Shown: piece after piece, positions 23,056 through 25,203 of the stretch
How the letters are laid out: every line of letters starts with the position of its first letter
How positions within the stretch are numbered: position 1 is the first letter of the stretch
DNA from: a virus
Direction: 5' to 3' (one strand)
Virus record (IMG/VR): IMGVR_UViG_3300048580_000135
Coordinates: 1 to 36,728 of that record
Length of the DNA stretch: 36,728 nucleotides
Program-made: the position numbers and the translations under genes
The notes under the pieces: generated by a model
What the model was told of the DNA's origin: nothing
Databases searched by the model: none
Seen by the model: only the letters and a program-made list of their open reading frames with translations

Positions 23056-23147
23056 TGACCCTGGCTGGCCTCGAACCAGCACCGCAGCTACTAATTCGCC
23101 TTCCCGGACGACTCCTTGCTGCACTCTTCCAATTGAGCTACAGGGTC
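23056..23147 (-). tRNA. tRNA-like gene with enlarged anticodon loop
   Basis: On the minus strand GACCCTG (23147-23141) pairs perfectly with CAGGGTC (23063-23057), the discriminator is A, the D arm GCTC-AATTGGAA-GAGT and the T arm GCTGG-TTCGAGG-CCAGC are canonical, and U8/A9 are present. The anticodon stem GCAGC/GCTGC encloses about 29 nt instead of 7, an insert of about 20 nt, so no anticodon can be assigned. No CCA is encoded. It may be a degenerate tRNA, a tRNA with an insertion, or a tRNA mimic. Confidence 0.55.
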
Positions 23148-23241: not shown

Positions 23242-23493
23242 TCAAAACAAATCCAACTGTTCCACCTTCGGCCTAGCTGCCACCGCTGGCAAGCTAAGCA
23301 TCACACCTTCACGAATCATCAACCCTTGCTTAACAGCCTCATCAATCGCCGCTTCCCACTGACCAACCGTCGCTTTGGTCCACTGCCGATTAGACAGCGA
23401 TTCCTGCAAAATCAGCCGTACTAACTCAGTGTCTCGCACTGATCGACGTTCGCCGCGTAGGTAGTCCGTGATCTCTTTGGGGAGGTCAGTCAT
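23242..23493 (-). CDS. Winged-helix-like protein with C-terminal clamp-binding motif
   Basis: An 83-aa protein from ATG 23493 (MTDLPKEITDYLRGERRSVR ... VEQLDLF). The body is helical with a small HTH-like core (WTKATVGQWEAAIDEAVKQG) and a wing LMIREGVMLSLP. The last residues EQLDLF match the consensus for binding the DnaN sliding clamp. That would bring the protein to replication forks. It lies between the methyltransferase gene and the tRNA-like element. Confidence 0.65.
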   Translation of the reverse strand: MTDLPKEITDYLRGERRSVRDTELVRLILQESLSNRQWTKATVGQWEAAIDEAVKQGLMIREGVMLSLPAVAARPKVEQLDLF

Positions 23494-23562
23494 GCAACAC
23501 CATGCCCAGCAAACAGAAAGCTGTCCCACCCAAACAAAACCCAAGAGCAAAAACTAACATCA

Positions 23563-24420
23563 TCATTTCATAGCCTCTATAATCTGCCGTCCGATGTACT
23601 CTGCGACCTGTGGTACTACTGCGTTTCCGAGTCCTCGCAATCTGTCCACCCTTCGGGGAATCCCATTAGCCACTCGACCCACATCGGGTTCAGACTGCCA
23701 CCACTCACTTCGGCTAGGCTTGGACCCGCAGACCGGCCGCGCTCCGCTTGCGTCTTGCCCTTGCCGCTGCGGTAGTCCCTCGCCGTTGGCGTCGGAAACA
23801 TTGCAACAAACTGCGTCAGTCCTTTTTGACAAAGCCTGCCAGTGTCTTTGTCGTACAATCTCTGCTTCATGTGTGTCGGTCGGTTGCCGTCTTTGTCCAC
23901 CAATCGCTCCGCTTTCATGCCTGGTTCGTTTGCCGCTGGAGTAGGCAACCAAGAAGACTCGATCGCGGAGGTGCGGTGCACCAACGGCGGCAGCCGGTAT
24001 GCAATGCCATTCCGCATCGTACCCGAGCGAGGCCAGCGACCCGAGAACGGAATCCATCCCCCGAGTAAGCAGAGCTGCGACGTTCTCCAATACAACGATT
24101 CTTGGTCCCATGTCGCGAACGATCCGCATGGCCTCGTAGAACAATCCGCTTCGCTCGCCGGCAAGGCCTGCTCCCTTGCCTGCGTAGGAAATATCCTGAC
24201 ATGGGAAGCCTCCGCAGATGACATCGACTCGCTCTGTGTCTGGCTGAGGCCAAGTTCTAACGTCACCATGCCTTCGCACTCCTGGCCAATGTTTTGCAAG
24301 AACTTTCGTTGCGTATTCATCAATCTCGACTTGCCATTTACAAACCATCCCTGCACGCTCAAAACCTAAATCAAATCCACCGATTCCTGCAAACAATGAT
24401 CCGAACGTCAGTGGTTTCAT
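23563..24420 (-). CDS. C5-cytosine DNA methyltransferase
   Basis: A 285-aa enzyme. The start is set at 24420 because AGGAAGG lies six bases before it; a 25-codon upstream extension merely translates the tRNA-like element. Motifs: FGSLFAGIGGFDLGFE (SAM), GGFPCQDIS with catalytic Cys74, VVLENV, RDRVFLVAY, and the closing RLRGLGNAVVPQ. The target-recognition region (about 165-235) is short. It should protect phage DNA from host restriction or mark it; no cognate endonuclease was seen. A second conserved-looking frame covers most of the gene. Confidence 0.92.
   Translation of the reverse strand: MKPLTFGSLFAGIGGFDLGFERAGMVCKWQVEIDEYATKVLAKHWPGVRRHGDVRTWPQPDTERVDVICGGFPCQDISYAGKGAGLAGERSGLFYEAMRIVRDMGPRIVVLENVAALLTRGMDSVLGSLASLGYDAEWHCIPAAAVGAPHLRDRVFLVAYSSGKRTRHESGAIGGQRRQPTDTHEAEIVRQRHWQALSKRTDAVCCNVSDANGEGLPQRQGQDASGARPVCGSKPSRSEWWQSEPDVGRVANGIPRRVDRLRGLGNAVVPQVAEYIGRQIIEAMK
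23616..24224 (-). CDS. Overprinted ORF inside the methyltransferase gene
   Basis: A 202-codon frame (from MSSAEASHVRIF) lies fully within the methyltransferase gene, shifted relative to it. It contains segments I know from annotated phage proteins near cytosine methyltransferases: FPTQAREQAL, WRTSQLCLLGGW, FSGRWPRSGTMRNGIAYRLP, FPTPTARDYRSGKG and LNPMWVEWLMGFPEGWTD. Part of that resemblance could be a shadow of the conserved methyltransferase. The frame may be translated or may only be a conserved by-product. Confidence 0.4.
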   Translation of the reverse strand: MSSAEASHVRIFPTQAREQALPASEADCSTRPCGSFATWDQESLYWRTSQLCLLGGWIPFSGRWPRSGTMRNGIAYRLPPLVHRTSAIESSWLPTPAANEPGMKAERLVDKDGNRPTHMKQRLYDKDTGRLCQKGLTQFVAMFPTPTARDYRSGKGKTQAERGRSAGPSLAEVSGGSLNPMWVEWLMGFPEGWTDCEDSETQ

Positions 24421-24437
24421 TTCCATCCTTCCTAAAA

Positions 24438-24500
24438 CGTGCCTCACTGGACTTGAACCAGCAGCTTGGGGTATGAGCCCTTGCCGCACCTGCAAGCACG
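24438..24500 (-). tRNA. tRNA-Met(CAU)-like element lacking a normal D arm
   Basis: On the minus strand CGTGCTT (24500-24494) pairs with AGGCACG (24444-24438), the T arm GCTGG-TTCAAGT-CCAGT (24462-24446) is canonical, and GGG-CTCATAC-CCC gives U33, anticodon CAU (24475-24473) and A37. Only about 10 nt lie between acceptor and anticodon arm, so a standard D arm cannot form; a rival helix CTTGC/GCAAG exists. It sits in the gap between recT and the methyltransferase ribosome site. Confidence 0.4.
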
Positions 24501-24516
24501 CCCGCTGCTGCTGCGG

Positions 24517-25203
24517 TTAGCTCACCGTTCCGGCTGCTTCTGCAATTCCTTCGGAAGTGGCAGATGCCCGCCTATTGGCAACTCGCTGCTTGGCAACATC
24601 GATAACGCTACACTTGCCAGACAGTTCGTCGTCAGAATACACGCCTAAGATTACTTCTGGAAAATAGACTCTCGCCCAGTCCCTTGAGGTGTTGTAGAAC
24701 AACTGCAAATCAGGCTTGGACTTCCATAGCGGAGAGTTCTTCGGAGTGATACTGCCGATCTCTGGCGAGGTGTACTCAAGCGGCTCATCGCTTCCGGCAA
24801 TATCAGCCCACACCGTGCAACGTCGCTTATCGCCCTCGCCGCTAAACGTGTGCCGCAACCTACCTTCAATTGGTGCGCGTTCTTCGATGACGGCATGAAT
24901 CAACTGCGACTCGTAGCCTACGCGATCATTGACAACGTAGCTTTTGTTTGCGACGGCAAACGGACTGAATCTCCACTCCATCGCCTGTATGCAAATCGCC
25001 AAGCAAGAGCCTGGATTTCCTCGCAAGTGCGGCGGTATAGCCTGACCCGATACGGACATCAGCTTTGCAAACTCCATTACGTCGCCCATGTCTTTGCACG
25101 CGACGGAACCATTCGCAAAGGTCATCGCCTTAGCAACCGACTTATCGATACTCGATTCAATCAACTCAGACTTCGTTTTCGTCGTTGTCACTGCGTTACT
25201 CAT
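24517..25203 (-). CDS. recT: RecT single-strand annealing protein
   Basis: A 228-aa protein with the RecT core: AKAMTFANGSVACKDMGDVM, GQAIPPHLRGNPGSCLAICI, WRFSPFAVANKSYVVNDRVG and LQLFYNTSRDWARVYFPEVI followed by LGVYSDDEL. Typical full-length RecT is about 260 aa; this one is slightly shorter at the C-terminus. It anneals ssDNA exposed by the RecE-like nuclease, whose stop overlaps its start by eight bases. The pair drives phage recombination or circularisation. Confidence 0.92.
   Translation of the reverse strand: MSNAVTTTKTKSELIESSIDKSVAKAMTFANGSVACKDMGDVMEFAKLMSVSGQAIPPHLRGNPGSCLAICIQAMEWRFSPFAVANKSYVVNDRVGYESQLIHAVIEERAPIEGRLRHTFSGEGDKRRCTVWADIAGSDEPLEYTSPEIGSITPKNSPLWKSKPDLQLFYNTSRDWARVYFPEVILGVYSDDELSGKCSVIDVAKQRVANRRASATSEGIAEAAGTVS

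Follow-up and report, generated by a model that had tools for sequence, protein, structure and literature searches.

In M.EcoHK31I, the cytosine methyltransferase made of two polypeptides that goes back to Lee, Kam and Shaw (1995), the small subunit is reportedly read in an alternate frame within the gene for the large subunit, and both are said to be needed for activity. The large polypeptide of this C5-methyltransferase (YGGCCR) carries motifs I-VIII and X, the small one carries motif IX only, and the predicted target-recognition domain (TRD) has been placed in the large subunit (PMC3404938). M.AquI (CYCGRG) is also a C5-methyltransferase of two polypeptides, but its small subunit carries motif X in addition to motif IX (PMC3404938). 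A Paracoccus phage enzyme of specificity YGGCCR has been described as well (PMC6536676).

The gene studied here is located in the window, i.e. the whole 36,728-nucleotide stretch of viral DNA that was analysed (IMG/VR record IMGVR_UViG_3300048580_000135). An earlier note on this DNA had read cytosine methyltransferase motifs in the main frame, which we name alpha, and a second conserved-looking frame printed over it, and had proposed two alternatives: a genuine second family that is overprinted, or a widely annotated family that is no more than the shadow cast by methyltransferase genes. The methyltransferase assignment of the main frame was borne out by matches of alpha to PF00145 over residues 5-169 (Pfam, E=2.3e-49), to TIGR00675 (NCBIfam, 141 bits against a cut-off of 100.65) and to PHROG_363 (3.6e-84). 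Alpha constitutes the catalytic large domain, with AdoMet-binding motif I and motifs IV (PCQ), VI (ENV), VIII and X, and contains neither a motif IX nor a recognisable TRD. In a single-chain enzyme both of these would be present in alpha; here the Pfam match ends at residue 169 and the motif-IX-like peptide is found in the +1 frame only. The pLDDT of the AF2 model of alpha is mostly >90 for residues 1-165 and <50 for residues 166-209 and 216-256, so that 166-256 is mostly disordered in the model, and Foldseek aligned alpha with M.HhaI over about 164 columns of 327 residues (31% identical). The alpha chain appears to be without the small DNA-recognising domain. The features of the locus are compiled in Table 1.

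Table 1. Features of the alpha/beta locus, with positions in the window (SN and NS are defined in the text).
Feature	Position	Strand	Basis or observation
Alpha, C5-cytosine methyltransferase, frame 0, 285 aa	23563..24420	-	Motifs I, IV, VI, VIII, X; Pfam, PHROG_363, AF2, Foldseek
Beta, gene nested in the +1 frame; likeliest start ATG 24269, giving 217 aa	23616..24269	-	Predicted start
Alpha residues 1-96	24133..24420	-	Alpha frame alone selected; SN 1197 : NS 36; codon identity ~1.0x for 1-64
Motifs VI-VIII of alpha (residues 97-165), overlapping beta WRTSQ...WPRSGTMRNGIAYRLPPL	23926..24132	-	Both frames selected; identity 1.4-1.7x; SN/(SN+NS) 0.63-0.86
Alpha residues 166-225	23746..23925	-	Beta frame alone selected (LPTP-type repeats); SN 27 : NS 291
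Possible ribosome-binding site AGGAG, 9 nt upstream of ATG 24267-24269	24279..24283	-	Suggested by sequence context
Alternative beta start ATG (202 aa), inside alpha Asp66-Val67	24222..24224	-	Positional enrichment
Further alternative beta start ATG	24320	-	
Beta peptide WPRSGTMRNGIAYRLP over alpha LGYDAEWHCIPAAAVG, same bases	23988..24035	-	Sequence
Beta peptide LNPMWVEWLMGFPEGWTD, motif-IX-like	23640..23693	-	hhalign to canonical methyltransferases; alpha-frame copy in L231, L312
Alpha motif X, LRGLGNAVVPQVAEYIG	23590..23640	-	Beta stop inside; synonymous constraint ends there

The second frame, which we name beta, is open from position 24365 to a stop at 23616 (stop codon 23616-23618). Both peptides quoted in the earlier note are present in this +1 frame, for which the note had taken the ATG at 24224 as the start, and its claim that two frames are overprinted in the methyltransferase gene is confirmed: both open reading frames were located, and the overlap is far beyond chance (see below). 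The +1 frame of the window matched PHROG_1008 (1.2e-27) and no Pfam or NCBIfam family, and searches with beta gave no match in Pfam, PDB or PADLOC. PHROG_1008, PHROG_26627, PHROG_27243 and PHROG_31772 are the phage protein families closest to the second frame, and the second frame belonged to PHROG_1008 in 47/47 aligned relatives. The label of PHROG_1008 is 'DNA methyltransferase'. Catalytic motifs are, however, absent from the relatives examined, which are encoded in +1 relative to methyltransferase genes; PHROG_1008 is a real family under a misleading label. In phage Diva, the annotators had already marked an 'internal gene' at the corresponding place.

Conservation of the second frame might merely reflect the methyltransferase protein and its codon usage, in which case it would be an untranslated shadow. 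We compared the gene with relatives comprising 80 loci found with methyltransferase patterns, 80 found with second-frame patterns and annotated phages, and used shuffles (60 per gene) in which synonymous codons were permuted while the methyltransferase protein and the codon usage were kept. Similarity to the family and the open frame were both lost on shuffling, which argues against a shadow. Thus, for 156/156 methyltransferases the similarity of the +1 frame to the family was higher than in all 60 shuffles (median z 8.4), and the same was observed for each of the 76 members of an independent set that had been collected solely by methyltransferase patterns (76/76). The +1 open reading frame had a median length of 245 codons in the 156 methyltransferases, compared with 114 in their shuffles, and in the window it spans 249 codons against a shuffle mean of 97. 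No excess length was detected for the +2 frame of the 156 genes (52 versus 65 codons in shuffles); its similarity was likewise raised (median z 4.6), which is the expected outcome under constraint on the DNA as such. Every locus listed with both tblastn matches had its second frame in +1 relative to the methyltransferase frame.

The constraint on synonymous codons followed the second frame. Among distant relatives, synonymous-codon identity was 1.01x the expected value for residues 1-33 and 1.03x for residues 34-64. Inside the second open reading frame it rose to 1.7x (residues 101-135), 1.4x (136-165), 1.7x (201-240) and 2.3x (241-268), and it returned to 1.01x in residues 269-285, exactly past the end of this frame. 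The freezing of codons is limited to the second open reading frame, a pattern that reflects selection on a second protein. According to the earlier note, synonymous variation in the methyltransferase frame that freely breaks the second frame would refute the observation; what we found is that such codons are constrained, and only inside the second frame. For residues 65-96, the similarity of the second frame is largely dictated by the alpha protein, as a shadow would have it. A few codons near the C-terminus are almost invariant, a feature that would suit a constraint at the level of the nucleic acid, such as an RNA structure or a binding site, instead of a second protein. The pattern is however codon-periodic in the +1 frame and stops at the +1 stop codon, and the frame-specific substitution classes described below also disfavor this explanation. 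Rfam detected no family over positions 23400-24600 at gathering, nor did it report one for the gene at E<=5. We consider the probability of a constraint of this type to be negligible.

The +1 arrangement was present in all 332 assembled loci, among them the 80 best of 353 relatives, taken from GTDB genomes that belong to many phyla. Of about 600 genomes drawn evenly from two phyla, 32 displayed a match to the second-frame profile, and at every place examined the match was +1 over a methyltransferase. A standalone second family, the existence of which the earlier note had suggested checking, was found neither among phages and plasmids nor among the best 80 of the 353 GTDB relatives and the about 600 further genomes. 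That the second family was never seen apart from the methyltransferase is a point in favor of a shadow. So are weak, stop-interrupted partial matches over other methyltransferases (L385-L388), which have the look of a true one. On the other hand, the second frame is absent from canonical methyltransferases: the C5-methyltransferases of this type in the same bacterial genomes have a motif IX in frame ('LTPRECARLMGFPDTF'-type) and no +1 open reading frame beyond shuffles except for a single one of 124 codons (L334), whereas the window-type methyltransferases in those same genomes all have the second frame. Hundreds of phages and bacteria possess this arrangement, under the annotation of an ordinary one-protein enzyme.

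Selection on the two frames was resolved by sorting the isolated substitutions in 55 disjoint close pairs into two classes: SN, synonymous for the methyltransferase but nonsynonymous for the second frame, and NS, the converse. Both frames are selected, and the selected frame switches along the gene (Table 1); in residues 268-285, the ratio was SN 204 : NS 8. The inversion of 27:291 relative to 1197:36 corresponds to a Fisher p of about 1e-237, with pairs taken as independent, which is only approximately true. Because the substitution classes are inverted in residues 166-225, the alpha frame is a passenger in this region. Hence, after motif VIII and before motif X it is the second frame that is selected and the methyltransferase frame that is the passenger. 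The window and its nearest relative (L096) illustrate this for residues 166-240, where beta is 89% and alpha 53% identical at a DNA identity of 80%. That in residues 166-225 the methyltransferase frame is the unconstrained one is a further argument against a second frame that is a shadow of the enzyme. Together, the shuffles, the synonymous constraint and the substitution classes support the first alternative of the earlier note, a real and overprinted second protein, and rule out the second for all practical purposes, so that we regard a shadow as exceedingly improbable. The results go beyond that note in that it is the methyltransferase frame which is a shadow in residues 166-225, and in that the second protein resembles a small-domain subunit that the enzyme would otherwise lack.

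Several start codons can be considered for beta (Table 1). An ATG at the 24224 position is present in 37/84 relatives, compared with 23.3 expected from synonymous shuffles (z=4.0), and in the clade to which the window belongs the beta start codon is not invariant. The situation is clearer in the clade whose alpha proteins start with MNELALF. Asn2 is encoded by AAT in 44/44 of these loci, against a gene-wide use of AAT for 41% of the Asn codons, and this AAT fixes a +1 ATG that follows the alpha start by four bases and usually has a purine-rich, Shine-Dalgarno-like stretch ahead of it. The alpha start codon itself is often GTG or TTG, and synonymous constraint sets in at the +1 ATG codon, from which a beta N-terminus reading MSWLFS... 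is predicted. The invariant ATG and the constraint from there onward therefore indicate that beta has its own start in the MNEL clade.

Alternatively, programmed frameshifting could fuse the N-terminal part of the methyltransferase to the C-terminal part encoded by the second frame, so that no separate protein would be made. This would agree with the observations that in the clade of the window strong synonymous constraint is present only from near residue 97, that some of its members have +1 stop codons up to about 10 codons upstream of it, and that in L116 and L204 the beta open reading frame shares its frame with the N-terminus of alpha. Such a fusion would however drop motifs VI-VIII of alpha, which are strongly selected. 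Moreover, it is difficult to reconcile with the invariant ATG in 44 loci, followed by constraint in the beta frame, and with the fact that 154/156 loci offer a candidate start codon (ATG, GTG or TTG) ahead of the conserved block, within the stretch that is open. We consider frameshifting very unlikely, and internal initiation is the favored route by which beta would be produced.

The conserved parts of beta are WRTSQ, a WPRSGMMRNGxxYxLPPL block, (W/L)PTPxAxD repeats and LNPMWVEWLMGFPxGWTD. The last of these represents a motif-IX-like peptide (LNPxWVEWLMGFPxGWTD) that is present in beta and missing from the methyltransferase frame. When the full beta profile was compared with full canonical methyltransferases by hhalign, the sole alignment obtained, a short one of only moderate significance, fell exactly on motif IX (18 columns, E 0.0007-0.05, probability 1-26%). 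The LPTP repeats bear a resemblance, and a resemblance only, to the TL-motif of known TRDs (PMC2413257). Modeled alone by AF2, beta reached a pLDDT of 61 and its model had no fold match in PDB; the proposed role as a TRD is thus based on position, selection and the order of motifs.

Relatives in which motifs have moved between frames bear on the identity of this peptide. In L231 and L312, the methyltransferase frame itself contains LNPDWVEWLMGFPIGWT / LNPDWVEWLMGYPISWT immediately ahead of motif X, and the +1 frame ends short of this peptide, which strengthens its identification as motif IX. The methyltransferase open reading frame stops after motif VIII in phage Wildflower (L011), in an Embleya plasmid (L367) and in L240, where motifs IX and X are on the +1 open reading frame. 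Judging from these sequences, the motif-IX peptide is retained in whichever frame. The alpha frame also ends after motif VIII, with the beta frame open, in the bacterial loci L208 and L240, the latter having a beta that terminates in motif X; these two may be split enzymes, cases of decay or assembly errors. We rejected the possibility that beta acts alone in L240 and L011, as the presence of motif X on beta makes them split enzymes. In some enzymes of actinobacteria and actinophages (L402, L400/L409, L008, L010 and L012) the methyltransferase frame contains a motif IX of the WMMGWPxGW type, yet +1 still encodes the N-terminal part of beta. This block may accordingly serve a separate function. 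In an Actinoplanes genome (L242:1317-3539 and L398), the beta open reading frame runs without a stop for 741 codons into the downstream protein, which contains an ATPase-like CGKSRLLD stretch; this is a possible natural fusion of beta.

Two natural knock-outs were considered and found to be uninformative, both frames being damaged in each. In Mycobacterium phage Llama and its sister phages (L363) a single indel breaks alpha and beta, and annotation lists the fragments as two 'DNA methylases'. The E. coli prophages that carry the unit include those of PCP07014 (L365) and PT62 (L364), with beta annotated in neither, and L365 has an internal stop and a PGAP pseudogene flag. EcoHK31I itself was not found in the E. 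coli search, which yielded only prophage relatives in four genomes.

A real overprinted beta could also have a job unrelated to methylation, for instance as an inhibitor of host defence. The failure of beta to match entries in Pfam, PDB or PADLOC, and of its model to match a PDB fold, leaves room for such a function. However, beta was never seen without a methyltransferase and it bears the very motif that is missing from alpha. In addition, when this motif is in the alpha frame, as in L231 and L312, it is gone from beta, and in the split loci L011, L240 and L367 motif X too is on the beta open reading frame. An unrelated function is therefore judged unlikely.

We instead consider it very probable that two genes, one nested in the other on the same strand, here encode the subunits of a C5-cytosine DNA methyltransferase of the M.EcoHK31I type, for which we infer translation, assembly and methylation. 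Frame 0 would give alpha, responsible for cofactor binding and catalysis (motifs I, IV, VI, VIII and X), and frame +1 would give beta from its own initiation site inside the alpha gene. Beta would be composed of a small conserved N-terminal domain, the LPTP-repeat region in place of a TRD, and the motif-IX peptide. The two proteins would assemble, with beta providing the small (DNA-recognition) domain in trans, and the alpha-beta pair would methylate the phage DNA. Beta is probably the specificity subunit, which carries target recognition. With somewhat better than even confidence, we extend this to a recognition module that is out of frame throughout the family: beta alone would set the target and the overlapping alpha stretch would be a disordered passenger, with specificity evolving via the +1 frame or motif IX moving between frames, such that nested, split and single-chain versions arise from the same DNA module.

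If the two-subunit reading is correct, many single 'DNA cytosine methyltransferase' annotations of the window type would actually be nested two-gene units, and annotation would usually omit the subunit on which the choice of target probably depends. Work that starts from the annotated protein alone, be it cloning or the prediction of specificity, would then fail or mislead. The locus would also be among the clearest natural long same-strand overlaps with a visible hand-over of selection, and a good benchmark for methods dealing with overlapping genes.

Two other features were observed near the gene. Rfam detected a tRNA at positions 23056-23147 (minus strand; RF00005, E=9.5e-8, 44 bits, above gathering) that was missed by ARAGORN; its anticodon arm is enlarged (29 nt versus 9 in the model), possibly as the result of an insertion or because the tRNA is decayed. 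Immediately upstream of alpha, positions 24438-24515 (minus strand) contain a tRNA-like stretch with an anticodon-like arm containing CAU (GGGCUCAUACCCC), a T-loop (GGUUCAAGUCC) and complementary ends, for which neither ARAGORN nor Rfam made a call.

Judged by its motif layout, the window locus is of a known kind, namely a member of the M.EcoHK31I type. Like M.EcoHK31I as described, it has an alpha with motifs I-VIII and X and a motif IX on a smaller polypeptide. A small-subunit gene nested in another frame, as reported for that enzyme, is likewise present; in the window it is the +1 open reading frame, which is under its own selection. The two may differ in the TRD, which for M.EcoHK31I was predicted in the large subunit, whereas here the large-subunit frame is unselected in this region and the small-subunit frame is selected. 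Members of the present family occur in phages and across many bacterial phyla. The resemblance to M.AquI consists in a natural split in the variable region with motif IX on a second polypeptide. Motif X of the window is in alpha, unlike that of M.AquI, in which motifs IX and X are together on the small subunit, and it is L011 and L367 that resemble the AquI layout. The canonical enzymes M.HhaI, M.HaeIII and Dcm have the large domain in common with alpha but, unlike the window, contain the TRD and motif IX in one chain and have no conserved +1 open reading frame. Within the literature searched, the breadth of the family, the frame-switching selection, the putative location of the TRD in beta, the paired start codons and the frame-switched variants appear to be new.
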